Origin: Chordicoccus furentiruminis
GTDB taxonomy: Bacteria > Bacillota > Clostridia > Lachnospirales > Lachnospiraceae
Direction: 5' to 3'
Assembly (NCBI RefSeq): GCF_019355395.1
Contig: NZ_CP048829.1
Span: 2,397,001-2,461,000 of the forward strand
DNA length: 64,000 nucleotides
Part shown: positions 43,463 through 62,480 of the stretch, piece after piece
Layout: each line of letters begins with the position of its first letter
How positions within the stretch are numbered: position 1 is the first letter of the stretch
The notes under the pieces: generated by a model
Told to the model about the DNA's origin: nothing
Seen by the model: the letters and a program-made list of their open reading frames with translations, nothing else
The model's database searches: none
Position numbers and translations under genes: made by a program

Positions 43463-43534
43463 TAATTCGATGTCGGGTCAGCCGTATGCCGGTATGACCT
43501 GAGAGACAGGATGACACAATCGAAAGGATACCGG

Positions 43535-45094
43535 ATGGATCACGTACAACAACACGAGAAAGTCATTGTCATCGATTTCGGAGGGCAGTACAACCAGCTG
43601 GTCGCACGCCGCGTGCGGGAGTGCAGCGTGTACTGCGAGATTTATTCCTACCGTACGCCGCTTGAGCAGATTCGGGCCATGCAGCCGAAGGGCATCATTC
43701 TGACGGGAGGCCCCAACAGCGTCTACACGCCGGATGCGGCCGTCTGTTCGCCGGAACTGTTCTCACTGGGGGTTCCGGTTCTGGGACTCTGCTACGGGGC
43801 GCAGCTGATGCAGCATGTGCTCGGCGGACAAGTCGAAAGGGCGCCGGAACGGGAATACGGCAAAACGGAAGTCATACTCGATGAGCCGAAATCAGCCCTG
43901 TTTGATGGAATCGCTTCGCCGACGACCTGCTGGATGAGCCACAATGATTACATCAGCCGGATCGCGGACGGCTTCCGCGTGACGGCCCATACGGCGAATT
44001 GCCCGGTCGCGGCGGCGGAGGATGCGGCCCGCGGTCTCTACGCGATCCAGTTCCACCCGGAGGTGCTTCACACAGAACACGGGTTTGAGATGATCCGTCA
44101 TTTCGTCCTTGATATCTGCGGCTGCAGCGGGGACTGGAGGATGGATGATTTCGCGGAGCGGACGATAGAGGAGCTTCGCAGCCGGATCGGAGACGGAAAG
44201 GTTCTCTGCGCGCTGTCCGGCGGCGTGGATTCCTCTGTGGCGGCTGTGCTTCTCGCGAAGGCGGTCGGCAAAAATCTGACCTGTGTTTTCGTGGATCACG
44301 GTCTTCTCCGGAAGAACGAAGGCGATATGGTCGAGGAAGTCTTCGGACCGAACGGTCCCTACGACCTTCAGTTCGTCCGGGTGAACGCGCAGGAACGCTT
44401 CTATAAGAAGCTGGCCGGCGTGACCGAGCCGGAGCGGAAGCGGAAAATCATCGGCGAAGAGTTTATCCGCGTCTTTGAGGACGAGGCGAAGAAAATCGGA
44501 AGGGTGGATTATCTCGTGCAGGGAACCATCTATCCGGATGTTGTCGAGTCCGGACTCGGCGGTGAATCCGCGACGATCAAGTCGCATCACAACGTCGGAG
44601 GTCTTCCCGACTACGTCGATTTTAAGGAAATCGTCGAGCCGCTTAGAAATCTGTTCAAGGACGAAGTCCGCAAGGTCGGACGGCATCTCGGGATACCTGA
44701 AAAGCTGGTCAGCCGTCAGCCGTTCCCTGGTCCCGGCCTCGGAATCCGTATCATCGGAGAAGTGACCGCAGAAAAAGTCAGGATCGTGCAGGATGCGGAT
44801 GCGATCTTCCGGGAAGAGATGGAAAAAGCCGGACTCGACAGGACCGCCAGCCAGTACTACGCGGCGCTGACGAATCTTCGATCGGTCGGCGTGATGGGTG
44901 ATGAACGCACCTACGACTATGCGATTGCCCTGCGCTCGGTCAATACCGTCGACTTCATGACGGCGGACGTGACGGAGATCCCGTACACTGTCCTGAAGAC
45001 GACCATGAACCGGATCATCAATGAGGTGGAGCATGTGAACCGCGTCTTCTACGACATCACGAGCAAACCGCCGGCGACGATTGAGCTCGAATGA
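43535..45094 (+). CDS. guaA: GMP synthase (glutamine-hydrolysing)
   Basis: GuaA converts XMP to GMP using glutamine and ATP. The 519-residue product has the class-I glutamine amidotransferase domain (GLCYGAQLM with the catalytic Cys, FHPEVLHT with the catalytic His), the PP-loop [11 protein letters not shown] and the C-terminal dimer domain. ATG 43535 has AAAGGA upstream; ATG 43511 is an alternative adding 8 residues. The last codons GAG CTC GAA are followed by TGA; these bases recur at 61706, so a mobile element seems to be inserted at the gene's 3' end. Confidence 0.93.
45083..45092 (+). other. Putative attL core
   Basis: GAGCTCGAAT, the last coding bases of guaA, is identical to 61706-61715. 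Short cores at the 3' end of guaA are well-known targets of tyrosine integrases. Confidence 0.6.
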
Positions 45095-45100
45095 TAAGAC

Positions 45101-45145
45101 AGAGGCTGTAAACCCTTATATTCAGCGGGGTTACAGCCTCTTTTT
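45101..45145 (+). terminator. Terminator after guaA supplied by the element
   Basis: Arms 45101-45111 (AGAGGCTGTAA) and 45131-45141 pair perfectly and run into T residues (45141-45145). In the proposed model this lies inside the element and replaces the original guaA terminator. Confidence 0.85.
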
Positions 45146-45148
45146 CTG

Positions 45149-45195
45149 TTCAGTGACAATACAACGACAATACTCCCAAAAGGATCGTCACTGAA
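45149..45195. repeat. Candidate integrase arm-binding repeats
   Basis: GACAATAC occurs twice, at 45155-45162 and 45166-45173 (11-bp period), within a larger inverted repeat TTCAGTGAC (45149-45157) / GTCACTGAA (45187-45195). It lies 63 bases inside the left core. Confidence 0.45.
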
Positions 45196-45263
45196 TGAAT
45201 GATGTAAATTTTTTCTTCTGATTTCACGTCCTGTCCCATTCGGGACATCCGTCCATGAATTTA

Positions 45264-45288
45264 CCGGGTGAAAGACCCGGCTTTTTTT
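45264..45288 (+). terminator. Hairpin with T7 tract
   Basis: CCGGGT (45264-45269) and ACCCGG (45275-45280) with a 5-base loop precede seven T residues. It would stop + strand transcripts before they run antisense into the XRE gene. Confidence 0.6.
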
Positions 45289-45304
45289 AACTTCACAGCC
45301 ACGG

Positions 45305-45949
45305 TCAGTCCGTATCCTGCTTCTCCGGCTTGCGTTTTCTTTTCGCTTTTGCCCCGGAATCAGGTGTGGCAGTCGTTTTATTCTCACCCTGCAGTTTCTG
45401 GAGTTTGTTTGCGATTTCGGGATTCGGAGTATAACCGTACATCTGGTCTTTGTCGATAAAGTCAGGCCAGGCGCTTTTCCAGTCGTCATATTCCTCGTCC
45501 AGAAGATTGCCTTCGTCGTAAACCTTGCGGACATGCTCCCATAAGGCGAGACTTTCCCGAAACTGCAGACGTTTTAACTTTTCAGAGGAGGTGAGAGCTT
45601 TCTTTACACCAGCATCTGCGTCCTGATCGAGAACAAGGCACAGTCGGCCGTCTATCTCCTTAGGGATGAGGCCGTAGCAGCGCTCGATATCAAACAGGAC
45701 ATGAATGGCTCCGGTCGGATCGGTGGGATCCGGATCCAGGAGACTGAAAACATCAATGTGAAGAGTATCAGCAATCTGTGTCAGGGTCTGCTTGTCCGGA
45801 TACCGGTTGCCAAGCTCATAGTTTCGGATGGTTGATTCATTTAAGCCACATGCATCACCGAGCTCCTTCTGCGTCAGTCCGCGATACTTCCGGTAGAGAC
45901 GGATCTTACTGCCGATGGAGTGGATGAACAGGGAATCCTTGTCAGGCAT
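45305..45949 (-). CDS. XRE-family repressor of the element
   Basis: An N-terminal helix-turn-helix (residues about 16-70: LTQKELGDACGLNESTIRNYELGNRYPD) is followed by a C-terminal region without a recognised enzyme motif and a Lys/Arg-rich tail. It is divergent from the Xis-like gene, and palindromes with TGAACTG arms lie between them, so it probably keeps the excision/integration genes silent, like immunity repressors of phages and ICEs. There is no protease (ImmA) partner. Ribosome site AGAAGGAAG; 214 residues. Confidence 0.8.
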   Translation of the reverse strand: MPDKDSLFIHSIGSKIRLYRKYRGLTQKELGDACGLNESTIRNYELGNRYPDKQTLTQIADTLHIDVFSLLDPDPTDPTGAIHVLFDIERCYGLIPKEIDGRLCLVLDQDADAGVKKALTSSEKLKRLQFRESLALWEHVRKVYDEGNLLDEEYDDWKSAWPDFIDKDQMYGYTPNPEIANKLQKLQGENKTTATPDSGAKAKRKRKPEKQDTD

Positions 45950-46035
45950 ATCTTCCTTCTTTCGTACATGATTGTCTGGTCCTTTGTTCGTCAGCAGCCT
46001 TCCGGAGCTTCGGAACTACAGTAAGTATATCAAAA

Positions 46036-46130
46036 ACAGTGCAGAAATGAAATGTTTTTTGCCTGGATGTATTGACAGTTCAAAAATGAACTGTTAGGAT
46101 GAGGATATGAAACAGTTCATAAATGAACTG
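46036..46130. promoter_or_regulatory. Operator palindromes and promoter upstream of xis/int
   Basis: Two palindromes, ACAGTTCA-AAAA-TGAACTGT (46075-46094) and CAGTTCA-TAAA-TGAACTG (46113-46130), lie 37 bp apart centre to centre, with a weaker third copy at 46036-46055. A promoter TTGACA (46072-46077) - 17 - TAGGAT (46095-46100) has its spacer almost filled by the first palindrome. The XRE protein is the obvious candidate to bind. Confidence 0.75.
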
Positions 46131-46165
46131 CTAACAACAAAAACATACGTACAGGAGGATAAGAA

Positions 46166-46357
46166 ATGAACGGCAGCAGATTTATGAAAGCAGCAGATAT
46201 TCAGGAGATTCTCGGTGTTTCAGACAGCATGGCATACAAGATCATCCGCCAGTTGAATGACGAGATGATTGCCAAGGGGTATCACACGGTAAGAGGTAGA
46301 ATCAGCCGTAAGTATTTTGAGGAAGTATTTTACGGCTGTTCTGCAAAAGAGGACTAA
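46166..46357 (+). CDS. Excisionase-like small DNA-binding protein
   Basis: The 63-residue product is a winged-helix/HTH protein (MKAADIQEILGVSDSMAYKIIRQLN) of the excisionase-like type that commonly precedes integrases. It is likely the recombination directionality factor. The ribosome site AGGAGGATAAGAA is strong, and integrase starts 4 bases after its stop, so both are driven by the repressed promoter at 46072. Confidence 0.75.
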   Translation: MNGSRFMKAADIQEILGVSDSMAYKIIRQLNDEMIAKGYHTVRGRISRKYFEEVFYGCSAKED

Positions 46358-46360
46358 TCC

Positions 46361-47461
46361 ATGGCAGTGATCAAAAACGAAAAGACCGGAAAATGGGAAG
46401 TCCGAACTTATTACGAGGACTGGACCGGCGAGCGTAAACAGAAGACAAAGCGGGGCTTTGAGAAGAAGCAGGACGCGGTGGAATGGGAGCGGGCATTCAA
46501 GCTTCAGAAGCATTATGACATGTCCATGACATTCTCCGATTTCGTTGAGGTTTACAGCAATGACATGAAACCGCGCCTCCGTCTCAATACGTGGAACAGC
46601 AAGGAGCACATCATCCGGACAAAGATCCTTCCTTATTTTAAAAATAAGAAAATGTCGGAGATAACGCCGTCGGATATTGTGAACTGGCAGAACGAGCTTC
46701 TCAGCTACCGGAATTCCTTTGGAGAAGGTTATTCCAAGACGTATCTGAAGACGATTCACAACCAGCTGAGCGCCATCCTGAATCATGCCGTGAATCTGTA
46801 CGGGCTGCGGTTTAATGCAGCCCGCAGGGCCGGCAACATGGGAAAGGAAGAAACCGGCGAAATGCGTTTCTGGACACAGGAAGAATATGAAACCTTTGTT
46901 GAGAAGGTGGCGGACAAGGAAGAGACGTATATGGCGTTTGAAATTCTGTACTGGTGCGGCGTCCGTCTCGGTGAACTGCTGGCTCTTACGCCGGAGGATT
47001 TCGACCTGGAGAAAAATTCGCTCCGCATCAATAAATCTCTTCAGCGGATTCACGGCGAGGATGTCATCACAGATCCAAAGACGCCGAAAAGCAGACGTGT
47101 CATCATTATGCCTGAATTTCTGACACTCGAAGTGAAGGAGTATCTGAGCCATTTGTATAAGGTCGGTCCGACGGACCGGATCTTCTGCATCAGCAAGAGC
47201 TTTCTGCATCATGAGATGGATCGTGGAGTGAAGCTCAGCGGCGTGAAACGGATTCGGATTCATGATCTCCGGCACAGCCATGTGTCGCTGCTGATCAATA
47301 TGGGATTCTCCGCGCTTGCCATCGGGAATCGGGTAGGCCATGAGGCAGTGGATATTACCTATCGGTATGCGCATTTATTCCCATCAATACAGACGGAAAT
47401 GGCGTCCGAGCTGAACAAGGAAAGAGAGGCAATCCTGAATGTCGCAAAAGAACAAAGATGA
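46361..47461 (+). CDS. Tyrosine recombinase/integrase
   Basis: The 366-residue site-specific recombinase has an N-terminal arm-binding (AP2-like) domain at about residues 1-55, a SAM-like core-binding domain at about 55-165 and a catalytic domain with Arg202 (CGVRLGEL), His301-Arg304 (HDLRHSH), the GH of VGHEAVD and nucleophile Tyr336 (YAHLFP). It presumably inserts the element at guaA. Its 3' end overlaps the next gene by 23 bases. Confidence 0.93.
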   Translation: MAVIKNEKTGKWEVRTYYEDWTGERKQKTKRGFEKKQDAVEWERAFKLQKHYDMSMTFSDFVEVYSNDMKPRLRLNTWNSKEHIIRTKILPYFKNKKMSEITPSDIVNWQNELLSYRNSFGEGYSKTYLKTIHNQLSAILNHAVNLYGLRFNAARRAGNMGKEETGEMRFWTQEEYETFVEKVADKEETYMAFEILYWCGVRLGELLALTPEDFDLEKNSLRINKSLQRIHGEDVITDPKTPKSRRVIIMPEFLTLEVKEYLSHLYKVGPTDRIFCISKSFLHHEMDRGVKLSGVKRIRIHDLRHSHVSLLINMGFSALAIGNRVGHEAVDITYRYAHLFPSIQTEMASELNKEREAILNVAKEQR

Positions 47462-47870
47462 TCACAACCGCCTCCGGTCTAGGACCATTGCCTTTCGCAT
47501 GTCGCCGGAGGAAGAAGCGGAGCTGAACGACAGAGTAAAACTTTTGGGATATCGGACAAAGCAGGATTATCTGATCTATGCAGTTCTTCATAACGAGGTA
47601 AATGCAGTCGGTAATGCGCAGATGCTGGTACAGTTCCGGAAGGATCTCAGGGAAATTCTGACCGAGCTTAAGCGGCTGGATTCTGCTTCGGAGATGGAGG
47701 AGGAGCTGATGACGCCGGTACGGACCATGCTGGAAATCCTGAGAGCATTTCAGGAACAGCCGAAGAAGCAAGGAAAACAGCCGGTAATGCAGGAGACGCA
47801 ATACAACAAGATGATGCACCTGCAAAAACTGGAAAGGCTTATGGCAGAAAGGAAGAAGCAGTATGAGTAA
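47439..47870 (+). CDS. Ribbon-helix-helix/MobC-like protein
   Basis: The 143-residue product has a short beta-strand and helix region (RTIAFRMSPEEEAELNDRVKLLGYRTKQDYLIYAVLH, here given in overlap) typical of RHH proteins such as MobC accessory relaxosome factors, then a charged helical tail. No relaxase gene is found nearby, so a role in mobilisation is only possible; it may instead regulate or assist the Par system. It overlaps integrase (23 bases) and parA (8 bases). Confidence 0.6.
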   Translation: MSQKNKDDHNRLRSRTIAFRMSPEEEAELNDRVKLLGYRTKQDYLIYAVLHNEVNAVGNAQMLVQFRKDLREILTELKRLDSASEMEEELMTPVRTMLEILRAFQEQPKKQGKQPVMQETQYNKMMHLQKLERLMAERKKQYE

Positions 47871-48669
47871 GATCATTGCCATTGCGAATCAGAAAGGTGG
47901 CGTCGGAAAGACTACTACAGTCGTAAACCTGGGCGCCGGTCTTGCCGGAGCAGGAAAAAAGGTTCTGATGGTGGATCTGGATCCACAGGCATCTCTGACC
48001 ATCAGCATGGGATTCCGTGAGCCGGATAAACTGGATGGAACAATCACTGATATTTTCATGAGAACCGTGAATGACGAAGTGATTCCGGAAGGATATGCTA
48101 TTCATTCTATCGCGGAGCGTCTGGATCTGATTCCCTCCAGCATTGATCTTTCCGCGACAGAAGTGTCTCTGGTCAATGAGATGAGCCGCGAGCTGGTGCT
48201 GCGCTCTTACATGGAGCGGATCTCCGGCAGTTACGACTATATTCTGATCGACTGTATGCCGTCGCTTGGAATGCTCACGGTAAGTGCACTGGCCTGTGCC
48301 GGAAGTGTTCTGATCCCGGTACAGCCGGTGTATCTGCCGGTTCGCGGCCTGCAGCAGCTGATCCGGACGATCTATACGGTAAAGCGGCGCCTCAACAGTG
48401 CGCTTTCTATTGAAGGAATTTTGTTCACGATGGTGGACAGGAGAACCCTGTATGCAAAGGAAATCGTGGAAGAGGTGAATCAGGCTTACGGAGGCACAAT
48501 TCCGATTTTCCAGATGGTGATTCCGATGTCTGTTAAGGCTTCGGAAACAAGTCAGGCAGCAAAAAACATCTATGATTATGATCCGCAGGGCAAGGCGGCA
48601 AAGGCATACAGAGAATTAACGGAGGAGGTTCTGGAGAATGACAGCGAAGAGAGAAAAGGTGCATTTTGA
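47863..48669 (+). CDS. parA: ParA/Soj-family partition ATPase
   Basis: ParA is the deviant Walker-type ATPase of plasmid and chromosome partition. The 268-residue product has KGGVGKTTT near the N-terminus, the Walker A' DLDPQAS, and the Walker B region DYILIDCMPSLGMLT. The gene overlaps the start of parB by 32 bases, the usual parAB pairing. Stable maintenance of a circular form of the element is the likely role. Confidence 0.9.
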   Translation: MSKIIAIANQKGGVGKTTTVVNLGAGLAGAGKKVLMVDLDPQASLTISMGFREPDKLDGTITDIFMRTVNDEVIPEGYAIHSIAERLDLIPSSIDLSATEVSLVNEMSRELVLRSYMERISGSYDYILIDCMPSLGMLTVSALACAGSVLIPVQPVYLPVRGLQQLIRTIYTVKRRLNSALSIEGILFTMVDRRTLYAKEIVEEVNQAYGGTIPIFQMVIPMSVKASETSQAAKNIYDYDPQGKAAKAYRELTEEVLENDSEERKGAF

Positions 48670-49620
48670 GTCGGTTGAGGAACTGCTGGGAGCGCCGGTT
48701 GCAAAGGACGCGACTTCAGAAATCCGCATTGATCAGATTTTTCCGTTTGAGAATCATCCATTTAAGGTTCTGGATGATGACAGGATGCAGGAACTGGTGG
48801 AGAGCATACGTCAGCACGGCGTGCTCGTGCCGGTGCTGGTTCGTCCGGATGATGAGGGAACCTATGAGATGATCTCCGGGCATCGGAGAATGCATGCGGC
48901 GAAGCTTGCAGGCCTGCGACGATCCCGGCGATCATCAAACCGATGACGGATGATGAAGCAACCATCGCAATGGTGGACGCGAACATGCAGAGGGAGGAAA
49001 TACTGCCGAGTGAGAGAGCTTTCTCACTCAAGATGAAGATGGATGCCATGAGGAGACAGGGGGCGCGGACAGACCTCGCAATGCGGAGAAAAGCGGAAGT
49101 CGCAAGTCAGAATAATGTGTCTGACTCTGGAACTTGTGGCACTGAATGCCACAAGTTAAACACCTCGTCAAACTTTGATAGAAAAGCCAGAGAGGAAGTT
49201 GGAGAATCCATGGGGTTAAAGGGAAGACAGGTTTAGAATTATATCCGCCTCACTGAACTGGATTCCCGTCTCCTTGATCTCGTCGATCAGAAGCGGGTAG
49301 CCATCGCCCTTGCTGTGGAGATCTCATATCTCGACAGGCAGATACAGAGTTGGATCTATGAGTATGTGAAGGATAACGGATTCCTGAAGAAGGAACAGGT
49401 CATGGCAGTTCGCGCGGTTGATCACCCGGAACAACTGACACAGTTCACATTGATTCAGCTGATGAATGATGCGCTCCCGAAGCCGAAGGATACAGGGCGT
49501 GTGACATTCTCTGGCGCAAAGCTCAATAAATATTTCCCGCCGCACTTCACAGGCCAGCAGAGAGAAGAGGTCATTCTGAAGCTCCTGCAGGAATGGAGTG
49601 CAGGAAATCGCCAGGATTAA
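48638..49620 (+). pseudogene. parB: parB, broken by a one-base deletion and an amber stop
   Basis: The first frame gives a ParB/Spo0J N-terminus (residues 1-93, including ISGHRRMHAAKLAGL) and then goes out of frame near 48917; the continuation TIPAIIKPMTDDEATIAMVDANMQREE is in the frame starting at 48919, so one base has been lost. That frame runs to a TAG at 49234-49236, where GRQV-stop-NYIRLTE shows that CAG (Gln) has changed to TAG; the reading then continues in the same frame to the TAA at 49618-49620. The rest is the helical ParB C-terminal half. Sequencing error is an alternative explanation. Confidence 0.85.
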
Positions 49621-49633
49621 GAAGGAGGGCGGA

Positions 49634-50000
49634 ATGCAGTTTTCTTATATCGCAGGCAGTGAAGCGGAACAGTATGAGTTTGTTCGGATTCCGAAGACTC
49701 TGATCAGCAGCGACTATTTCGCGGATCTGTCTAATCCGTCGAGGATTTTGTACGGGCTTCTATTCGACCGGATGAGCGCCTCTCCGAAAAATCGCTGGCT
49801 GGATTCGGAGGGGGCATGTATATGTCGTGTATCCGGTGCCGGAGCTTACGGAAGATCTTCATTTGTCAGAGAGGAAAGTCAAGAGCTGCCTTTTGGAACT
49901 GGAGAAAGTCGGATTGATTGAGCGGAGAAAGCAGGGCCGGGGATTTCCGAATCGCATTTATGTCCGGAATTTCCTTCCGGCGAGTAATCATGAAGTGTAA
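49634..50000 (+). pseudogene. RepA_N-type gene, frameshifted
   Basis: The N-terminal part (SEAEQYEFVRIPKTLISSDYF, LYGLLFDRMSAS, split here) matches the downstream RepA_N protein. After DSEG near 49810 the frame is lost, and the expected continuation (YPVPELTEDLHLSERKV... VGLIERRKQG... IYVRNFLP) is read in a net +1 frame to a TAA at 49998-50000. The start ATG 49634 has GAAGGAGGGC upstream. It is a short, one-domain paralog of the intact gene that follows 29 bases later. Confidence 0.75.
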
Positions 50001-50029
50001 ATTGTGCACTTCTGGAGAGGGGGATCGCT

Positions 50030-51061
50030 ATGGATGAGAAGCCGATCCTGAAATATTTCACCGGCGGCGAAGCGGATCAGTTCACGTTCTACCGTATTCC
50101 CAAGCAGCTGTTTACCAACCGATATTTCCGGAATCTGTCCACGGATGCCAAGGTGTTATATGGTCTGATGCTGGACCGAATCAGCCTATCCGTCAAAAAT
50201 CACTGGATAGATGAGCAGAACCGGGTTTATATCTATTTTTCCGTTGAAGATACGATGGAATATCTGAACTGCAGGAAGAACAAGGCGGTGCAGCTGCTCT
50301 CCGAGCTGGACAGTGAGAAGGGGATTGGCCTGATTGAGAAGCGGCGGCAGGGTCAGGGAAAACCTACCGTGATTTATGTAAAGAACTTCTTTATCCCGAC
50401 GGATGCCGGAAAAGTGCAGAAAAAGTCGTCGGAGGAGCTGCCGGAACCTGCCTCAGAAGTTGGAAAAACAAACTTCAAGAAGTCCGAAAAACAAACTTCT
50501 GGAAGTTTGAAAAATAAACCTCTAGAGGTTGGAAAAACCAACCCTAATAAGAATAATAAGAGTAATACTGAAATGAATCAGACGGAGAGGGAGCTTATCT
50601 CATCTGATCTTATTGTATCTCTGGCGGAGGGGAAGGCAGACAATATCCGGACAACACAGTTGGGGAATAATGGCTGTCAGAGCGGAGCGGTTACAGGAGC
50701 AGCGAATCCGATGAGGGAGATCCGAAATAGAATCGATTATGAAGCCCTTCTGCAGGAATACCCGTTTCAGGACGAAATGATTGATGGGATCTGTGAGCTG
50801 ATGCTTGAGATTGAAGCATCGCAGTCAGAGAGCATCGTGATTGCCAGCAGCCGCCTGCCGGTTGAACTTGTCCGGGAGCGGTTTCGGAAACTGCGGTATG
50901 ACCACATTCACTACGTGATGGACTGCATACTGGCAAATACAACCAAGGTCCGCAACATCCGTAAATACATGCTTGCGGCCTTGTTCAATGCACCGGCGAC
51001 GATAGACGGTTATTATCAGGCAGAAGTGAATCATGACATGCCGGAGCTGGCAAGGCGCTGA
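50030..51061 (+). CDS. RepA_N/DUF6017-type replication initiator
   Basis: The 343-residue product has the RepA N-terminal winged-helix domain (FYRIPKQLFTNRYFRNLSTD, LYGLMLDR) and, after a low-complexity Lys/Asn linker (about 130-185) with repeated GKTN elements, a C-terminal domain (IDYEALLQEYPFQDEMIDGI) typical of DUF6017 proteins in plasmid-like elements of Firmicutes. It is the only full-length replication candidate in the element. Ribosome site GAGAGGGGGATC. Confidence 0.8.
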   Translation: MDEKPILKYFTGGEADQFTFYRIPKQLFTNRYFRNLSTDAKVLYGLMLDRISLSVKNHWIDEQNRVYIYFSVEDTMEYLNCRKNKAVQLLSELDSEKGIGLIEKRRQGQGKPTVIYVKNFFIPTDAGKVQKKSSEELPEPASEVGKTNFKKSEKQTSGSLKNKPLEVGKTNPNKNNKSNTEMNQTERELISSDLIVSLAEGKADNIRTTQLGNNGCQSGAVTGAANPMREIRNRIDYEALLQEYPFQDEMIDGICELMLEIEASQSESIVIASSRLPVELVRERFRKLRYDHIHYVMDCILANTTKVRNIRKYMLAALFNAPATIDGYYQAEVNHDMPELARR

Positions 51062-51142
51062 AGAAAAAGTGAGAGCCGTAAGTAAGCCGGAACGGTAATT
51101 CTGTATTATTGCTGGAATATTTCAGAACTACGTGATAAGTGC

Positions 51143-51197
51143 TTGCTATTTATGCAGAGCATAAATATAATGAAATTAGATAAATATGCAATGCATA
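51143..51197 (+). promoter_or_regulatory. Promoter with overlapping palindromic operators
   Basis: TTGCTA (51143-51148) and TATAAT (51166-51171) are 17 bases apart, and the palindrome ATTTATGC-AGA-GCATAAAT (51148-51166) fills the spacer. A second palindrome TATGCA-A-TGCATA is at 51185-51197. Self-repression by the XRE gene at 51218 is likely. Confidence 0.7.
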
Positions 51198-51217
51198 AAT
51201 ACATAGGGGTAATCATC

Positions 51218-51439
51218 ATGGACAAGGATGAAAACAACAATCTGGAGAATAAGAATTCGGGGGATGAAATCCGCCGGATTCGCGAGAGTACAGGGATGAA
51301 TCGAAAGGAATTCGCGGAATATTTCGGCATACCTTATCCGACGATCACGGATTGGGAACTGGGACACCGCAAAATGCCGGATTATCTTCTCCGGCTGATC
51401 GCCTATAAAGTGGAGATGGAGAAACTGATCAAAAAATAG
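51218..51439 (+). CDS. Small XRE-family regulator
   Basis: The 73-residue product is little more than an HTH_3 domain (IRRIRESTGMNRKEFAEYF, PYPTITDWELGHR). ATG 51218 has AGGGGT upstream; the upstream in-frame ATGs lie in the promoter/operator region. It is 20 bases before a membrane-protein gene, with which it probably forms a self-regulated pair. Confidence 0.8.
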   Translation: MDKDENNNLENKNSGDEIRRIRESTGMNRKEFAEYFGIPYPTITDWELGHRKMPDYLLRLIAYKVEMEKLIKK

Positions 51440-51459
51440 TCTTGCAAGGAGGATCTGTC

Positions 51460-52119
51460 ATGATGGCCGTGCTCGGAGTCATACTCTACCTGATCTATCT
51501 GGCTGTCTGTATCGCGTTGGCGGTCATGGGACTAACGCTGGCGTATATGCCGTATGTGCTTGGCGGCATCGCCAGCCTGATTATTTACAGCCAGAATCCG
51601 GGAATTCAGACGTGGATTCCCGGGCATCCGTGGATGTGTTTTATTGTGCTTCTGGCACTCGTCGAGGCGGGGATTGCTGTCCTGATGCACATAAAGCATG
51701 TTTCCCGTGCAGTCATTACGTTTTTCTGCTGTGTTTTTATGGGCGCGATCGGAGCGGTCGTCTTTGAAGGACTGACTCCGGATTCCATGGGGTATTGCCT
51801 TTTTGTCTCGGTCGTGTACCTTCTGCTTTCGGTATTCGCAGTACGGGTCAATCTGCGAAATCTACCAGAAGAGCGCGGAAGCAGAGGAATCCTTGCGGGC
51901 ATTCTCTCGGGTGCGCTGTACGGCCTGTCTGCAGTAAGTCTTTTCGGATTCCTGGCGGAAGGTATCTGGAAACCGTATTTTGTCGGACTTGGACGCAGTG
52001 CCGACAGAATCGAATGGATCATTAATGCAGCGTGTGTTGTCGGGGCAGTGCTGATCTTACTGGCAGTGGTTTTGTTTAGGCGGAAAACTGGGAATCTGCA
52101 GGATATGTCGTATTCATAA
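51460..52119 (+). CDS. Polytopic membrane protein, unknown function
   Basis: The 219-residue product has about six hydrophobic spans (about residues 4-26, 29-45, 53-75, 80-100, 107-127, 142-170 and 185-208). No motif identifies its role. ATG 51460 has AAGGAGG seven bases upstream. It sits between an XRE regulator and a DUF1016 nuclease gene within the element, a layout seen in accessory or defence clusters, but that link is inference. Confidence 0.65.
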   Translation: MMAVLGVILYLIYLAVCIALAVMGLTLAYMPYVLGGIASLIIYSQNPGIQTWIPGHPWMCFIVLLALVEAGIAVLMHIKHVSRAVITFFCCVFMGAIGAVVFEGLTPDSMGYCLFVSVVYLLLSVFAVRVNLRNLPEERGSRGILAGILSGALYGLSAVSLFGFLAEGIWKPYFVGLGRSADRIEWIINAACVVGAVLILLAVVLFRRKTGNLQDMSYS

Positions 52120-52166
52120 ATCGGACAGGCTGAAGCTGCCGATTGCTTTATTGGGGAGAAAGGTTT

Positions 52167-53243
52167 ATGAGTGACCAGATCAGGATAGATGATGAATATA
52201 AACGCTGGATACAGCAGATCAGCAGCGACTTTAGGAAAAGCCAGATAAAGGCTGCGTCAACAGTAAACTCTGAGATGCTGAAGTTTTACTGGAGACTTGG
52301 AGAAGGTATTGAGCAGGAAAAGCAGAAATACAGCTGGGGATCAAAGCTGTATGAGCAGATCAGCAAGGACTTAAAGGCAGCTTTGCCAGGCATGCATTCC
52401 TTCTCACCACGGAACCTGCGGTACATGAACCACTATTATCGGCTGTTTTCTTCCCCTGAAATTTCGCAACAAGCTGTTGCAGTTTCTGAAGGAACTGAAA
52501 TTCTGCAACAAGCTGTTGCACAATTATCACCGATATTCTGTATACCGTGGGGACATATCGTGAATATTTTGGATAAATGTAGAGATGATCCGGAAAAAGC
52601 ATTGTTTTACGCAGAGAAGACCATGGAAAACAACTGGTCCCGGGCTGTTCTCCTGAATTTCCTTGATACGGATCTTTATGAGCGGCAGGGAAAGGCTATC
52701 ACAAATTTTGATAAGCGGCTGCCGGATGCGGAGAGCGACCTTGCCCAGCAGATGACGAAGGATCCCTACAATTTTGACTTCCTGACGCTACGGGAACGAT
52801 ACGATGAAAAAGAGCTGAAAGATGCCTTGATGGACAATGTTCAGCGTTTCCTTCTCGAATTGGGAACCGGGTTTGCATTCGTCGGGAGGGAGTACAGACT
52901 GAATGTCGGCAAGACAGAACAGTTCATCGATGAACTGTTTTATAACATTGCGTTGCACTGCTATGTGGTCATAGAAGTCAAGACCAGAGCCTTTGAACCG
53001 GGAGACATGGGGCAGCTCGGCACCTATGTTGCGGCTGTAGACGGCATTCTGAAAAGAGACGGGGATACACCGACGATCGGGCTCCTGATCTGCAAGACCA
53101 AAGATGCGGTACTTGCCAGATATGCATTGAACAGTGTAAATGTTCCCATCGGGATCTCAGAATATGAATTATCCAAATTCATCCCGGAGAATTTCAAGCA
53201 GTCCATGCCGACCATTGAGGAAATCGAACAGGAGTTGAATTAA
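52167..53243 (+). CDS. DUF1016/YhcG-type PD-(D/E)xK nuclease
   Basis: The 358-residue product has the DUF1016 N-terminal helical domain (STVNSEMLKFYWRLGEGI, LKAALPGMHSFSPRNLRYM) and the C-terminal PD-(D/E)xK domain: GKTEQFIDELFYN and VVIEVKTRAFEPGDMGQLG give the Asp and ExK catalytic residues. Members are linked to mobile DNA and defence. A 39-base near tandem repeat (QQAVAVSEGTEI / QQAVAQLSPI) occurs near residues 97-120. ATG 52167 has GAGAAAGG upstream. Confidence 0.85.
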   Translation: MSDQIRIDDEYKRWIQQISSDFRKSQIKAASTVNSEMLKFYWRLGEGIEQEKQKYSWGSKLYEQISKDLKAALPGMHSFSPRNLRYMNHYYRLFSSPEISQQAVAVSEGTEILQQAVAQLSPIFCIPWGHIVNILDKCRDDPEKALFYAEKTMENNWSRAVLLNFLDTDLYERQGKAITNFDKRLPDAESDLAQQMTKDPYNFDFLTLRERYDEKELKDALMDNVQRFLLELGTGFAFVGREYRLNVGKTEQFIDELFYNIALHCYVVIEVKTRAFEPGDMGQLGTYVAAVDGILKRDGDTPTIGLLICKTKDAVLARYALNSVNVPIGISEYELSKFIPENFKQSMPTIEEIEQELN

Positions 53244-53251
53244 GCGGATAG

Positions 53252-53292
53252 TGAGTACCAACTGAGTACCGGATGAGTACCGACTGAGTATT
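53252..53292 (+). repeat. Four iteron-like 11-bp direct repeats
   Basis: TGAGTACC starts at 53252, 53263 and 53274, and a fourth, TGAGTATT, starts at 53285: an exact 11-bp period, one helical turn. They are in an untranslated gap. Such arrays are typical of replication-origin iterons or of partition sites. Confidence 0.7.
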
Positions 53293-53402
53293 TCCAGACG
53301 ATTTTCCGGGTGATATTCTTATACTGGACAATCGGAGAGGGAACCGAAGATCCCAAACCGGAGTCTTTCTTTTGCAGAAGAAAACAGCATATTTATTACC
53401 AG

Positions 53403-53446
53403 AGCGTCAGCTCGTGACAGAAGCGTCACGGGTCTGGCGCTTTTCT
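53403..53446 (+). terminator. Terminator-like hairpin
   Basis: Inverted repeat 53403-53418 with 53425-53441 (G-T pairs and one bulge), followed by TTTTCTT. It lies within the iteron-containing gap upstream of DUF5688. The remainder of 53293-53494 holds no gene. Confidence 0.55.
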
Positions 53447-53494
53447 TATGCCTGAAAAACGGAAGTATCCGGCAGGCGCTAAAGAGAGGAGCCT

Positions 53495-54526
53495 ATGACA
53501 AAAGAATTTGAAGATTTTGCAGACCGAGTGACAGATGAGCTGATCGATCGCCTGCAGGAGAACGGGTATGGTCACATTACAGTCGGTGTGAGAAGCGTAG
53601 AAACGGCCGGCGGCAGTTATGAGGCGGTGAACGTGAAGCTGAACGGCACTGAAATGGCGGTCAGCGCGAACCTTTCAAAGGCGTATGAGACATATCTTTC
53701 GGGAATGTCGATTGATGAGATCGCGGAAAATTTGACACATCAGATCAGTCACGCGCTTGCTCAGATGTCCAGGATGGATGTGAGTTTCATTACCGATTAT
53801 GAAAATGTAAAGGACAGGCTGATTGTAGATCTTGTCTCTGGAAATCAGAGCAGAAATCGTCTTCATGATGTCCCGCACGGGAATATCGCCGACATGGCCC
53901 TTGTGTGCAAGGTGATGGCAGATCCGGACGACATTTCGAAAGGCACGATCCTGATCAATAATTCCCTGCTACAGCAGTATGGCATAACACCAGAACAGCT
54001 GCAGCGTGATGCTCTGGAAAATGCAGCCAGGATCCGTCCGGCAGCCATCGCACCAATGTCTGAGGTCCTGCGTCAGGAACCTCTGGGTGCCGATGAGTTC
54101 CTGTTTATCGCTTCCTCTCCTGATGCAATTCACGGAGCAGGAGTAATTGCGTATCCCGGATTCCTTGATCAGGCAGCACAGCAGCTCGGAGGAGATTTTT
54201 TTGTTCTTCCATCGAGCATACACGAGGTGATTCTTGCAAAAGACAATGGATTTCTTCACGCGGAGGAACTCACTGATCTTGTACAGGCTGTCAATCAGAC
54301 TGAAGTGGCTCCGGAGGAGAGGCTCAGTGATACAGCTTATCACTTTGATAGTCGGGAACATGTCTTTGAGAAGGCAGAACAATTTGCGGCAAGGAAGAAA
54401 AGGGACAGAGGAAAAGGGTCACTTCTTGGAAATCTCGCGAAGAAATCACAGCGCGTTTCCGAGGAAAAAGCAAACAGGATGGAGCGTGCTTCAACATCAA
54501 AAGTGAAGGGAGGCAAGGAAATCTGA
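53495..54526 (+). CDS. DUF5688-family protein
   Basis: The 343-residue soluble protein matches the DUF5688 type found in Clostridia elements: an N-terminal region with VNVKLNG, a central YPGFLDQAAQQLGGDFFVLPSS and HEVILAKD. No catalytic function is known. The C-terminus is basic (KKRDRGKG, KSQRVSEEKAN). ATG 53495 has AAAGAGAGGAGCC. Its stop overlaps the next start by one base. Confidence 0.7.
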   Translation: MTKEFEDFADRVTDELIDRLQENGYGHITVGVRSVETAGGSYEAVNVKLNGTEMAVSANLSKAYETYLSGMSIDEIAENLTHQISHALAQMSRMDVSFITDYENVKDRLIVDLVSGNQSRNRLHDVPHGNIADMALVCKVMADPDDISKGTILINNSLLQQYGITPEQLQRDALENAARIRPAAIAPMSEVLRQEPLGADEFLFIASSPDAIHGAGVIAYPGFLDQAAQQLGGDFFVLPSSIHEVILAKDNGFLHAEELTDLVQAVNQTEVAPEERLSDTAYHFDSREHVFEKAEQFAARKKRDRGKGSLLGNLAKKSQRVSEEKANRMERASTSKVKGGKEI

Positions 54527-54714
54527 TGTGCAAAGCTTATAACTCACAAAAGATCGGGACCGGCAAGATGGATTCCATACCGCCGGCATTTCCCACCAAG
54601 ACTGCAATGCCTCGAAACTGCCTGCATCCATGCTGCTATGGAAGGGGACGCGATTATTGCTTTCCCTGCTATAAAAAACTGAAAGGTAAAAATGAAAAAG
54701 CAACTGGCAAATGA
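54526..54714 (+). CDS. Cysteine-rich small protein
   Basis: The 62-residue product has a cysteine cluster (CLHPCCYGRGRDYCFPC) that could bind zinc, and a basic tail. It is translationally coupled to DUF5688 (TGATG overlap) and overlaps the next frame by 23 bases. No family is recognised. Confidence 0.6.
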   Translation: MCKAYNSQKIGTGKMDSIPPAFPTKTAMPRNCLHPCCYGRGRDYCFPCYKKLKGKNEKATGK

Positions 54715-55075
54715 CAGTGTCCGGACGGAAGAGCCGGAACAGAACAGCTTTACGCAAATTCCTTTGTCATTGTACGAAGCGCAGCCATACCGGGAGATAA
54801 CGCCATTGTCGAGACAGCTATATGGACTTCTCCGTTATCGGACCTGCCTCGCTGAAAAGTATGGGTGGGAAGACGAAAAGGGCAGGAGATACATTTATTG
54901 CACAATCCGGCAGATCTCGGAAGAACTGGGGTGCTCGGTCAGAACGGCAGGAAAGCTTATAACAGAGCTGCAGGAGAAGGGTTTTCTTGAGAAGGAACGG
55001 CAAGGGCAGGGAAAGCCAAAAAGAGACAACCTCGCGGATACAACTGATCCACAGGCGTCTCTTCTCCCTACTTGA
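54692..55075 (+). pseudogene. Truncated RepA_N-type gene
   Basis: The first 105 residues (FTQIPLSLYEAQPY, LYGLLRYRT, ISEELGCSVRTAGKLITEL, RQGQGKPK) follow the RepA_N pattern of the gene at 50030 in colinear order. Similarity ends at GQGKP (about 55015), and the frame then closes after 18 unrelated residues. The rest of the gene is missing, and the lactose module begins within 60 bases. It may mark the breakpoint of a cargo insertion. Confidence 0.65.
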
Positions 55076-55131
55076 TGTTCTTACAGTAATCAGACTATTT
55101 CTTGTTGTTCTCCCGGATGTGCAGAAGAGAA

Positions 55132-56058
55132 TCATTCGCCAAATTCAATCCCGTCCTTCTCTTTACGGCCCTCTACGTCCTTCTCTTCTTCTTTAAACTG
55201 ATCACGGAATTCTCTCGGGGACTGTCCGCACAGCTTATGAAAAAGCCTGCTGAAGTACAGCGGATTATCATAGCCAACGACAGAGGCAATTTCCTGCACG
55301 CTGTACGCAGTCGTCTCCAAAAGGATCTGCGCATTAGAGATTCTAAGGGAAAGAATATATTGATTTGGTGTATGCCCCGTATATCGTTTGAAACTTCGAA
55401 TGAACCAGCTGATGCTCATTCCTCTTGCAGCCGCATACTCTTCTATGCTGATCTGCTTCCTGTAGTTCTCGTGAAAATAAGCAACGGCATGTACCATTTC
55501 TTCAGACAGGAACGGATTCTTTGGTGTAACATGCTCTCCGTCCAGTCTGTGAATCATGATAAAGATTTCCCGCAGGTACATTACAAGAAGTTCTTCGTTA
55601 TCCGTCCGGTTTCCTTTTCGCTCCTCGATCATCCTCTGAAACAGATTCTTATACTCAACGGACGTACCCGTATAGATTACATGCTCATGATCCTTAAATC
55701 CGTACTTTCGAAGGATATTCGTCACGTCATTTCCAGTGAAGTGAACCCAGTAAACTTCAGTCCGGTCAACACCGTAATAATAATACCGTTGTTCTTCTCT
55801 CGGACGGTACAGCACCATATTACCTGCGTTGACGATCTGTCGTTTCCCATTGAAATAGAAATAAGCTCTGCCATGCGCCACATACAGCAGCTGAAAGTCG
55901 AGCCTTCCTCTCGGTCTATACGTCGGAAGCCGCGGCCGACTGATCAAACGGAACATCCCGCAGCTGCCAACAAACAGCGGATGTTTTCTGTCCTTAAAGT
56001 CTATCCGGTTATTCTTATAGTAGGCGTTATCGACAATGAGATCTTTTTCCTCAGGCAT
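55132..56058 (-). CDS. AraC-family regulator of the lac module
   Basis: The 308-residue product has an N-terminal cupin-like sugar-sensing domain (GRLDFQLLYVAHGRAYFYFNG in part; residues 45-150) and a C-terminal AraC double HTH (ISIEEYAAARGMSISWFIRSF and VQEIASVVGYDNPLYFSRLFH, both split). It is divergent from lacZ and is presumably its activator in the presence of a galactoside. Ribosome site GGGGAAAG. Confidence 0.9.
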   Translation of the reverse strand: MPEEKDLIVDNAYYKNNRIDFKDRKHPLFVGSCGMFRLISRPRLPTYRPRGRLDFQLLYVAHGRAYFYFNGKRQIVNAGNMVLYRPREEQRYYYYGVDRTEVYWVHFTGNDVTNILRKYGFKDHEHVIYTGTSVEYKNLFQRMIEERKGNRTDNEELLVMYLREIFIMIHRLDGEHVTPKNPFLSEEMVHAVAYFHENYRKQISIEEYAAARGMSISWFIRSFKRYTGHTPNQYILSLRISNAQILLETTAYSVQEIASVVGYDNPLYFSRLFHKLCGQSPREFRDQFKEEEKDVEGRKEKDGIEFGE

Positions 56059-56274
56059 AACGACTTTCCCCTTGATGATACATTATTCACACTCCCAGAA
56101 GCCTTCTGCTGTCGCACCGACCCCGGCTTTTCAGATATTGTATCATTTTGTGCATGTTTCATCTATTTTTCTTTATATGAATTTCTCATTAACACCGATA
56201 AACTACAGATAAACAGAAATAAATGACAGCAATGGATGAACATCATATGAATTCTGTTCCGAGTCAAGAAAATG

Positions 56275-56294
56275 CATGACATGGTAATGTCATG
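56275..56294. promoter_or_regulatory. Palindrome upstream of lacZ
   Basis: CATGACAT-GGTA-ATGTCATG is a perfect 8-bp-arm palindrome 43 bases before the lacZ start. It may bind AraC or another regulator. No strong -35 is seen near it, as is common for activator-dependent promoters. The rest of 56059-56336 holds no gene. Confidence 0.5.
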
Positions 56295-56300
56295 AAATAG

Positions 56301-59399
<3,099 letters not shown>

Positions 59400-59546
59400 G
59401 ATCTCAGAATCTGCATTACTGCTCCGCCACGGCGCCGGCAGAGCACTAATGATAAAAGGAAATATCGGCATCTCTGTCAGACATAACAGATTTTCAAGAA
59501 GTAGCTGCACATTTCCGCAAGAATGCGGGAAGAAAGGGGAACCACA

Positions 59547-60983
59547 ATGGAAGAAAAGAAATACCTGAAATGGTACAACAAGATCGGTTATGGATCGGGA
59601 GATATTGCCGGCAATGTCGTATATGCCCTGCTGTCTGCCTTTGTCATGATCTTCCTGACCGATACGGCCGGCTTAAGTTCAGGAGTTGTCGGGACACTGA
59701 TTGCGGTATCAAAAGTATTCGACGGAGCCAGTGATCTGCTGTTCGGTGCATTGATCGACAAAACGCATACAAAGATGGGTAAAGCACGTCCCTGGATGTT
59801 CTATGGATACTTCGGATGCGCCGTCTGCCTGGTCGCCATCTTCAGTATTCCGGCGGATATGTCGGATTTTTCAAAGTATGCATGGTTCTTTATCACCTAC
59901 ACTGTGCTGAATGCAGGTTTCTATACCGCCAACAACATCGCTTACTCTGCACTGACAGCATTGATTACCAAGAACAATCATGAGCGCGTCCAGATGGGAT
60001 CAATCCGTTTCATGTTTGCTTTTGGCACCAGTATGCTGATTCAGACGATCACGGTGGCATGGGTCAATTCTCTGGGAGGAGACGCCGCTGCCTGGAGGAC
60101 AGTTGCGATCATCTACGCGATAATCGGTGTTATCAGCAATACCATCTCTGTTTTCTCAGTGAAAGAGCTTTCGCCCGAAGAACTGGCAGAGGATTCCACT
60201 GCCCAATCCGAAGACTATGAGCCTCCGGTAATGGATACAGAGAGTGAAGAAGCTATACCGATCGCAAATAATCAGAATGAAAAGTATTCCTTCAAGGAAG
60301 TTTTCAAGATCCTGATCCACAATAAATATTTTATTATGATCTGCGGCGCTTATCTTCTTATGCAGATCTATTCTGCAACATTGAACATGGGAATCTATTA
60401 CATGACCTATGTGCTGCACAACGCAAACCTTCTCGGGGTATTCTCCTGGGCGATCAACATACCGATGATCCTCGGCCTGCTGTTTACTCCCATGTTGGTC
60501 ACAAGGTTCAAGGGGATGTACCGGCTAAACAAATACGGATACATACTGGGCACTCTGGGAAGACTTGGTGTCCTTGTTGCTGGTTATCTCGGCAGTGTCC
60601 CACTGATGCTCGTTTTCACAGCCCTGGCCGCGGTTAGTATGAGTCCGCTTCAAGGTGACATGAACGCTCTGATTGCCACCTGCTCTGAATATACATACCT
60701 CAAAGATGGAAAGCGTGTAGAAGGAACCATGTATTCCTGCACGTCCTTTGGAACAAAGGTTGGCGGTGGTATTGGTGTTGCGCTTTCCGGATGGCTCCTG
60801 GAACTCTCCGGATACATCAAGGGTGGTGTTGCCACACAGCCTGCCAGCACAATTCAGATGCTCGGCATCATGTATCTCTGGCTCCCGCTGATCTTCAACT
60901 TCCTGGTTCTTCTCATTCTCGCAAGGCTCGATGTAGAGAAGACTGTTGAAAAGATGAAAGCTGAAAAGGCAGCCACAATCTAA
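59547..60983 (+). CDS. GPH-family sugar:cation symporter
   Basis: The 478-residue major-facilitator protein has 12 predicted spans and the GPH/MelB-type motif DGASDLLFGALIDKTHTKMGKARPW (in part). A long cytoplasmic loop with acidic residues (about 210-250) separates the two halves. It very likely imports lactose or another beta-galactoside for LacZ. ATG 59547 has AAAGGGGAA. Intergenic distance from lacZ is 147 bases without another gene. Confidence 0.9.
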   Translation: MEEKKYLKWYNKIGYGSGDIAGNVVYALLSAFVMIFLTDTAGLSSGVVGTLIAVSKVFDGASDLLFGALIDKTHTKMGKARPWMFYGYFGCAVCLVAIFSIPADMSDFSKYAWFFITYTVLNAGFYTANNIAYSALTALITKNNHERVQMGSIRFMFAFGTSMLIQTITVAWVNSLGGDAAAWRTVAIIYAIIGVISNTISVFSVKELSPEELAEDSTAQSEDYEPPVMDTESEEAIPIANNQNEKYSFKEVFKILIHNKYFIMICGAYLLMQIYSATLNMGIYYMTYVLHNANLLGVFSWAINIPMILGLLFTPMLVTRFKGMYRLNKYGYILGTLGRLGVLVAGYLGSVPLMLVFTALAAVSMSPLQGDMNALIATCSEYTYLKDGKRVEGTMYSCTSFGTKVGGGIGVALSGWLLELSGYIKGGVATQPASTIQMLGIMYLWLPLIFNFLVLLILARLDVEKTVEKMKAEKAATI

Positions 60984-60988
60984 TGCAA

Positions 60989-61031
60989 AGATCCCACCAG
61001 AGGGAAATTCGTTTTCCTGCTGGTGGGATCT
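60989..61031 (+). terminator. Terminator of lac module
   Basis: Arms 60989-61000 (AGATCCCACCAG) and 61020-61031 pair perfectly, with a second inner pairing, 6 bases after the symporter stop. The following sequence (gtctta) is only weakly T-rich. Confidence 0.6.
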
Positions 61032-61045
61032 GTCTTACTCATAGC

Positions 61046-61215
61046 TCAGGCCATGACCGGATTTTTCTTTTCTTCCTTTTCCTGCCGAATCAACTCGCCA
61101 ACCCTTTTGAGGCTGACACCTGTCATCTCAGATATTTCTTCTTTCCCATATTTCCCAGCTTTAATCATACGTAAGGCAGTAGCTTCAAAGAGAGACCACA
61201 CAACACGAAATAGAG
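61046..61215 (-). pseudogene. C-terminal remnant resembling Rpn/PD-(D/E)xK transposase-type proteins
   Basis: On the minus strand a run ending at 61046 reads VVWSLFEATALRMIKAGKYG and then EEISEMTGVSLKRVGELIRQ to a stop. The KAGKYGKEEISEMTGVSLKRV pattern resembles the C-terminal tail of Rpn/PD-(D/E)xK family proteins, which end in a similar EEIAEITGLS helix. No start or nuclease core remains. Confidence 0.35.
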
Positions 61216-61634
61216 ATGCGTATTTACTGGAATCAGTGGGGATAGTTCACACTCTGAGATTGCAAGAGCAAGTTAAGAGCAAGTTAAAGCACCCACCAGA
61301 AAACGTTGAAAATACAGGGCTTCCGCCATCTTTTAGGTGAAAAATGATTGAGCTCAGCAAGTTAAAAGTGTCATGGGGAGCAGTTCACCGTTTCACCGAA
61401 CGCTTTTTACCACGCCCCGGATTGGAAGATATCGTGATATGCAAGTGGTAGCAAGAGGTGAAATTTGCGAGTAGGCCATTGTTGTCTTTTATATTGACGA
61501 TATTTTTTTGACACAGAGGCGGAGACCGTTTGCGAAATCGCTTGCAATGGACGACAATCCACGGCATAATGATATTGTCACTCGTGACAATAAAATGACA
61601 TTCAAATCATCCGTAAATTCATGAATCAGAAAAG
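61216..61634. other. Gene-free right end of the element
   Basis: No gene is supported. AGCAAGTTAA recurs three times between about 61265 and 61365. The motif CGACAATCC (61551-61559) and the palindrome TATTGTCAC-TC-GTGACAATA (61573-61592) resemble the left-end GACAATAC repeats and may be integrase arm sites. Confidence 0.45.
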
Positions 61635-61656
61635 AACAGTTCAGAAGTGAACTGTT
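61635..61656. promoter_or_regulatory. Copy of the XRE operator at the right end
   Basis: AACAGTTCA-GAAG-TGAACTGTT shares both arms (ACAGTTCA/TGAACTGT) with the operators upstream of the Xis-like gene 15.5 kb away. It is 50 bases inside the putative right core. Confidence 0.7.
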
Positions 61657-61705
61657 TCGCACGCTGATATAGGATCTATGGACCTCTAACCCCTTTTCAA
61701 TCGAA

Positions 61706-61715
61706 GAGCTCGAAT
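61706..61715 (+). other. Putative attR core with guaA stop
   Basis: GAGCTCGAAT equals the guaA 3' end. Read in the guaA frame it gives Glu-Leu-Glu and then TAA at 61715-61717, the likely original stop, just ahead of a terminator. Confidence 0.6.
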
Positions 61716-61723
61716 AAATATTG

Positions 61724-61766
61724 AAAGTCCGGAATCCGGTATAAACACTGGGCTTCCGGACTTTTT
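61724..61766 (+). terminator. Terminator, probably the original guaA terminator
   Basis: Arms 61724-61734 and 61754-61764 pair over 11 bases, followed by T residues to 61766. No + strand gene lies immediately before it apart from the guaA-end fragment. Confidence 0.75.
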
Positions 61767-62053: not shown

Positions 62054-62054
62054 C

Positions 62055-62468: not shown

Positions 62469-62480
62469 AATGCCTCCTGT

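Follow-up and report, generated by a model that had tools for sequence, protein, structure and literature searches.

A probable guaA-integrated island of Chordicoccus furentiruminis and the adjoining left end of a second element

The guaA locus and the unit inserted there

A 64-kb stretch of the Chordicoccus furentiruminis genome (contig NZ_CP048829.1, positions 2,397,001 to 2,461,000), hereafter the window and numbered from 1 at its first letter, carries on its plus strand guaA, the gene for GMP synthase (43511-45094), as an open reading frame (ORF) of 527 amino acids (aa). Full-length GuaA homologues in congeners were 86-58% identical. A 16.6-kb unit, called A here (45083-61715), is inserted in the last codons of guaA, the reading frame of which was kept and ends in a TGA brought by the element. 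We consider it very probable that A is an island integrated at the 3' end of guaA and that the left end of another element, B, follows it in tandem.

By exact matching, GAGCTCGAAT was found on the plus strand at both 45083-45092 (left core, attL) and 61706-61715 (right core, attR). An earlier interpretation of the window from its letters, the sequence-only reading, had described a return of the last ten coding bases of guaA at 61706-61715. Both exact copies were recovered and the repeat is ten bases long; only nine of these are coding, however, and the tenth is the first base of the stop codon. As that reading had also stated, the right copy in the guaA frame gives Glu-Leu-Glu-TAA, the left copy gives Glu-Leu-Glu-TGA, and the different stop and the hairpin after the left copy are supplied to guaA by the left end of the element. 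Folding of 60 bases from each stop gave -25.2 kcal/mol on the left and -25.5 kcal/mol on the right. The terminator placed after the right copy was borne out in so far as it folds, but a simple terminator scan did not list it, because its loop is longer than the scan allows. In the whole genome (3,267,205 bases in one contig), GAGCTCGAAT occurred seven times, five forward and two reverse, where about 6.2 copies are expected of a random 10-mer in 3.27 Mb by our own arithmetic; the chance of a forward copy within 16.6 kb downstream was about 2.5%. Since seven copies is about the chance number, the repeat alone is only suggestive and was rejected as sufficient evidence by itself. The core repeat was taken as real because independent comparative breakpoints fall at both copies in other genomes. 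A tRNA-based integration site was likewise rejected, as the window holds no tRNA gene.

For the left breakpoint, named genomes were scanned with an alignment of 12 integrases, and the best 80 of at least 580 confirmed relatives were used. The closest of these by integrase, at 99% identity, were RUG227 (L127) and Clostridium vitabionis (L128, NZ_JADKQA010000005.1). In C. vitabionis, the DNA homology begins at the core (window 45083) and extends to 55020 in three stretches of 93.9, 92.3, and 94.2% identity, and the sequence left of the core is a different flank, not guaA. In RUG227, an A-type element lies directly 3' of guaA; its DNA was 94.8% identical over 45658-47999, while the GuaA protein was only 66% identical. 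These comparisons indicate transfer, between genomic backgrounds, of a unit whose left edge lies sharply at the core.

At the right end, two C. vitabionis contig ends match the window up to GAGCTGGAAT and then diverge, both from the window and from each other, one of them sharing five more bases with the window; the three right ends part after the right core. In two congener genomes, G017 and G046, guaA is joined directly to the sequence starting at 61706, over 213 bases at 96.7% and over 83 bases at 91.6% identity, respectively, and an integrase match was absent from the G017 genome (98% complete). The sequence-only reading had stated that its boundaries would be wrong if guaA ran into the 61.7-kb sequence in no relative; guaA does so in two genomes, one of them without an integrase match, and the boundaries stand. 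Judged by these alignments, a junction free of the unit exists in nature in other species, and both boundaries of 45083-61715 are shown by comparison, with the core repeat at the two ends and the breakpoints of relatives at those same places.

Between the cores, the int, xis, par, rep, and lac genes that had been read there are present, xis as a xis-like gene. Of the unit's proteins, 17 were scanned with Pfam. On the left lie a helix-turn-helix (HTH) regulator of the XRE type on the minus strand (45305-45949; HTH_3) and, from here on the plus strand, a small protein of 63 aa (46166-46357), xis-like by its position before int, which had no Pfam match and fell in PHROG 989, of unknown function. 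They are followed by the tyrosine integrase of 366 aa (46361-47461; Arm-DNA-bind_4, Phage_int_SAM_3, and Phage_integrase; alignment A1), a NikA-like mobilisation accessory protein (47439-47870; Pfam NikA-like), and a ParA ATPase (47863-48669; AAA_31). ParB (48638-49620) is in three pieces (48638-48946, 48943-49236, and 49315-49620), of which only the first matched ParB_N and the others were assigned by eye; in C. vitabionis, parB forms a single frame of 323 aa, and it is broken in the window. Two overlapping short frames, broken RepA_N-like pieces by eye, follow at 49598-50000. Either decay or sequencing error could account for these broken genes at 48638-50000.

Next come a replication initiator with RepA_N and DUF6017 (50030-51061), inside which four repeats at 23-bp spacing look iteron-like (50455-50551, plus strand), an HTH protein recognised by Pfam (51143-51439), a 225-aa protein, membrane-like by eye, without Pfam or PHROG matches (51442-52119), and, all by Pfam, a YhcG-type PDDEXK nuclease (52143-53243), a DUF5688 protein (53495-54526), and a RepA_N-type gene (54692-55075). 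The remaining genes are cargo, also assigned by Pfam: an AraC-type regulator on the minus strand (55132-56058), a LacZ-type beta-galactosidase (56337-59399), and an MFS_2 sugar transporter (59523-60983).

The homology to C. vitabionis stops inside the RepA_N-type gene, at 55020, where the window switches to the araC-lacZ cassette and C. vitabionis continues with other genes, one of them with DUF3801, and then a serine-recombinase gene. The DUF3801 family belongs to conjugation modules. Neither a relaxase family nor type IV secretion or other conjugation genes were found among the 17 proteins scanned. By its gene content, the unit looks like an island derived from an integrative and conjugative element (ICE) that lost its distal part. 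It would represent the integrase-proximal half of an ICE-like element (regulator, xis-like, int, NikA-like, par, and rep genes), the distal half being gone and the araC-lacZ-permease cassette standing in its place. No source of the cassette was found among congeners: 30 of 42 congener genomes had a LacZ match, and the listed non-self ones were at most 52% identical.

Residues R202, K225, H301, R304, H327, and Y336 were invariant in all 12 aligned integrases, and their roles in the integrase of the unit are presumed. By motif counts, GTGACAATA had three copies in the window against 0.16 expected, at 45153, 61573, and 61584, only near the two ends; the first forms left arm-like repeats with CGACAATA (45153-45172, plus strand) and the other two form an inverted pair on the right (61573-61592). 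The palindrome ACAGTTCANNNRTGAACTG, with none expected, was found at 46075, 46112, 52919 (in the nuclease gene), and 61636, with a degenerate copy at 46036. Motif and promoter scans placed the first two in a promoter-like site (46072-46130, plus strand) preceding xis-int, the copy at 46075 sitting between its hexamers. The palindrome ACAGTTCAGAAGTGAACTG (61636-61654) lies 51 bp from the right core, and a similar sequence is present in two C. vitabionis right ends. Exact copies of the arm-like and palindrome motifs occur near the left end in RUG227 and C. vitabionis. On this evidence the integrase would be catalytically active and act on the core and arm sites of the unit, and the HTH regulator of the element may bind the palindromes and control xis-int. 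As a separate observation, among 69 distinct elements, including the window at 45092 and 61715, the left-end hairpins past the guaA stop often had a loop like CCCAGTNTTTATGCGGG, in either orientation and with a variable stem (by eye); they may be more than terminators.

Element B, the integrase family, and competing explanations

The sequence-only reading took the right copy for the empty guaA end. This part could not be kept, as the stop and terminator match the left end of element B. Over the 83 bases at 61706-61788, identity was 92.8% to the left end of another guaA element, which is complete in C. vitabionis. This left end (61716-61788, plus strand), with matches in C. vitabionis, G017, and G046, consists of the stop, the hairpin, and an arm-like GTGAGTACATTTT, and lies outside the 16.6-kb unit. 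Moreover, the GuaA proteins of G017 and G046 were 67% and 70% identical to that of the window (72% for a second G046 copy), whereas the DNA just past guaA was 92-97% identical; the right-flank DNA has therefore moved horizontally. From these matches, element B is the most likely origin of the TAA and hairpin on the right. What passes for a native stop and terminator can thus belong to the end of another element, which corrects the picture of the empty guaA site.

In C. vitabionis, guaA is followed by a 14.3-kb B-type element and then by the A-type element. The genes of this B, between guaA-type cores, encode an HTH regulator, a xis-like protein of 79 aa, an integrase of 364 aa, and NikA-like, CHC2 zinc-finger, and VapE-like proteins, together with a MobA/MobL relaxase; in the window genome, B was recognised by its left end only. 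No right core of B reading as an element end was found in genome positions 2458001-2518000 with one mismatch allowed, nor in 2518001-2578000 with a narrower pattern, which gave one look-alike inside an ORF. Several ORFs right of the unit look like transposases by eye. Because of these ORFs and the missing right core up to 2.578 Mb, the B of the window was taken for a remnant. Two elements with a core between them thus share one target in both genomes, and from the two arrangements it can be read that tandem arrays occur in both orders. In the flank itself, HTH and small membrane-protein-like genes at 61820-62564 were 97-100% identical to a stretch of G046:C61 (L091), which there follows a mobilisation-like gene; this gene pair moves as cargo too.

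The integrase of the unit adjoins its target and belongs to a guaA-associated family. Counting full-length guaA or a C-terminal-only paralogue as a guaA end, such an end lay within 3 kb upstream of int in 60 of the 80 relatives (median, 1174 bp) and at 3.7 kb in one; 10 had none upstream, and 9 were not assessable, having less than 3 kb of upstream sequence. Nine of the 10 without guaA had a core of the guaA type and an element-like left end within 4 kb upstream, as would be expected of tandem insertions. A guaA-type core was therefore upstream in 70 of 71 assessable relatives, and guaA itself in 61. As far as gene neighbourhoods can tell, this tyrosine-integrase family of Clostridia prefers the guaA 3' end. 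Within the genus of the window, int in G024:C15, G043:C38, and G051:C57 has as its neighbour a C-terminal-only paralogue of guaA, with about 50-54% identity to residues 213-527; since int is beside guaA in some relatives and beside this paralogue in others, two host genes serve as targets. Four guaA-type cores were seen in a row downstream of a C-terminal-only guaA in G052:C17 (L110, L111; at 56581, 71413, 79800, and 83073), with an int-bearing stretch between the second and the third.

Four other explanations were weighed. Joint movement of A and B as a composite (accretion) element, with A alone no longer independent, is unlikely. Cis-mobilisation of tandems is described for such arrays in passages of a review (PMC5704250), and A and B are adjacent in both the window genome and C. 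vitabionis. However, their order is A-B in the former and B-A in the latter, the position of A directly after guaA in RUG227 means that A moved on its own, and the window genome lacks a B right core as far as it was searched.

Marginally less likely is that a single 16.6-kb unit lies in an otherwise native site and that the TAA and terminator on the right belong to the guaA end of the host itself. In G017 and G046, the junction of guaA with the 61706 sequence could reflect a shared ancestral downstream region. Yet the flank is far more conserved than GuaA, and its match is to the left end of a C. vitabionis element that is complete, with its own integrase and relaxase; the contigs of G017 and G046 stop 203 and 257 bases past guaA, respectively. 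The G+C content, 55-60% at 40-45 kb and 44-52% over the unit, drops to 37-43% at 61.0-63.5 kb. Furthermore, when 15 guaA-side segments of congeners, 14 of them from directly after guaA, were compared by tblastn (1e-15; frames of at least 100 aa), the matches were confined to guaA or left of it, with none right of guaA up to 2.518 Mb, 59 kb past the unit.

A prophage or phage satellite is very improbable. On viral contigs, 12 of 80 integrase relatives had guaA homology beside int, but none of the 17 scanned unit proteins was structural or concerned with packaging or lysis, and the backbone is plasmid- or ICE-like. The integrase matched 434 plasmid records, one in the 60-80% identity band, and 2064 phage records, all below 60%; neither set added to the definition of the unit. 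A chance match of the two 10-mers, with no unit having these ends, deserves almost no credence, as it accounts for the number of genome copies but not for the independent breakpoints at both of them.

Several points weigh against the island in tandem with B. No other complete A-type element running from end to end in a single contig was found, the C. vitabionis copy reaching a contig end. The terminator scan was near chance (2 against 1.3 in shuffles, and 3 against 1.6), as was the promoter scan (2 against 1.9). In one relative (L202), the 4 kb searched contained no core of the guaA type. The loss of the conjugation half was drawn from one relative, with DUF3801 in its continuation. Excision and a circular form would be expected of such an island.

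With these points considered, the island in tandem with B is still the explanation that we favour. Int would have recombined the core of a circular form with the last codons of guaA; the GuaA frame then continues across the left junction, where the element provides its stop and hairpin, and a second core is left at the right junction. We infer the order of arrival of A and B and the loss of the conjugation half. Self-transfer of the unit is unlikely, and its Int-dependent excision may remain possible.

Farther right, at genome positions 2472471-2549073 (L087:14471 to L223:11073), PADLOC models gave a bacteriophage exclusion (BREX) cluster with BrxA, BrxB, BrxC, PglX, PglZ, and BrxL. Its pglX is split, and the about 60 kb that separate its two parts contain phage-like ORFs and two recombinase-like ORFs (by eye); it looks as if a prophage is inserted in pglX. 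A second, shorter PglX ORF follows the cluster.

Probable exchange at the core in related elements

Both cores were readable in 24 loci including the window. The two were unequal in 14 of these, and 7 differed in the middle codon (core positions 3-9). The 24 pairs were hand-picked, with a pattern that fixed positions 1, 2, 7, 8, and 10 and allowed some middle codons; a search by right-end sequence returned the same kind of cores for the families that it caught, with many chance matches. The cores of the window are equal, and the window itself therefore cannot show core exchange.

An 8,730-bp element was present in eight hosts, 99.95-100% identical over 8,732-8,740 aligned bases. One search of 397 genomes recovered it in four, among them a host that was already known. 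The set omits L178 (about 85% identical where aligned) and L320 of G121 (the same left end, with the sequence stopping 46 bases on), and L352, the same place as L172, was counted once. The left and right cores were GAGTGGGAAT and GAGTTTGAAT in both Levyella and Ruminococcus bromii, GAATTCGAAT and GAGTTTGAAT in G152, GAGTTTGAAT and GAAATGGAAT in Blautia XA-2221, GAGTTTGAAT and GAGTGGGAAT in a Clostridia bin, GAGTTTGAAT and GAGTTTGAGT in G117, GAGTTTGAAT and GAATTTGAAT in G071, and GAGTGGGAAT on both sides in G273. Exactly one side was GAGTTTGAAT in seven of the eight hosts, the guaA side in four and the distal side in three, and neither side was in the remaining one. The guaA of L315 is the sister of the XA-2221 guaA (97% protein identity; support, 100/98), and it ends GAAATGGAA, which is the sequence now at the distal end of XA-2221. 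A crossover fixed to the left or to the right of the middle codon was rejected, as it leaves the core pattern of the eight hosts unexplained.

Apparently, a mismatched overlap of up to 7 bp that is resolved either way explains these cores. We think it probable that the guaA-family integrases exchange such an overlap (core positions 3-9) and would thereby edit the GuaA C-terminus between species. Each insertion may keep the last codons of guaA or put those of the element in their place and so rewrite the penultimate codon of guaA, with the displaced host version parked distally. The residue would have changed in two hosts, from Met to Phe in XA-2221 and from Trp to Phe in the Clostridia bin, the latter case being read from the right core alone. 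Against the exchange, the host codons before insertion were deduced from relatives, and the cores could also have been altered by later gene conversion in guaA or by another element inserted at the distal core. For the window, the 8.73-kb element is a relative only, its integrase being 59-61% identical.

The physical basis of such an exchange is known from portions of two papers: at secondary sites of ICEBs1, replication turns a mismatched 7-bp spacer into left and right ends that differ (PMC3715440), and integrases of the Tn916 type can recombine where the crossover region lacks homology (PMC5871717). No report of guaA codon exchange by insertion was found in the literature searched. The eight near-identical insertions form a natural experiment on how an integrase handles mismatched targets, and the codon exchange is directly testable; if it is true, site-specific elements edit the C-terminus of an essential enzyme.

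Relation to known systems

Insertion by tyrosine integrases at the guaA 3' end is already established, and the unit joins that kind; several guaA elements and tandem accretion are described in the sections consulted of a review (PMC5704250). The present locus shows guaA as a hotspot of insertion in gut Clostridia, with elements stacked in tandem and genes for lactose use as cargo. By the 17 proteins scanned, the unit is a site-specific genomic island outside the strict definitions of an integrative and mobilisable element (IME), an ICE, and a cis-mobilisable element (CIME). As worded in parts of the defining papers, an IME requires a complete relaxase gene (PMC5357655), and a CIME keeps att sites and has lost its integration and transfer genes (PMC5704250). 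The int of the unit is an open frame with its domains.

The nearest counterpart is the A-type element of C. vitabionis, which has the same gene order from the regulator to the RepA_N-type gene at 92-94% DNA identity. It differs in having other backbone genes, one of them DUF3801, where the window has araC-lacZ, an extra 527-aa ORF resembling an insertion sequence transposase (by eye), and parB in one frame, and in being placed after element B instead of after guaA. GIsul2, as presented in an excerpt of PMC9376610, shares a tyrosine integrase and the same last guaA codons, with the core GAGTGGGA, and its mobility was shown by experiment; it is proteobacterial and has other cargo, and the likeness is one of site. 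Tn5801-like elements likewise occupy the guaA 3' end, in Firmicutes, with 11-bp imperfect end repeats, but they have their own Tn916-family conjugation module and tet(M), neither of which is in the unit (PMC4844618, in part). The streptococcal guaA ICEs and IMEs, in the portions consulted of PMC4701971 and PMC5357655, also have tyrosine integrases targeting the guaA 3' end and repeats that hold only the exact guaA 3' end, whereas they possess their own conjugation genes or relaxase. Finally, the locus resembles the accretion model outlined in the same sections of PMC5704250, in which a tandem of decayed elements arises by insertion into resident att sites, with the difference that a CIME has lost its integration genes and the unit retains int as an open frame.

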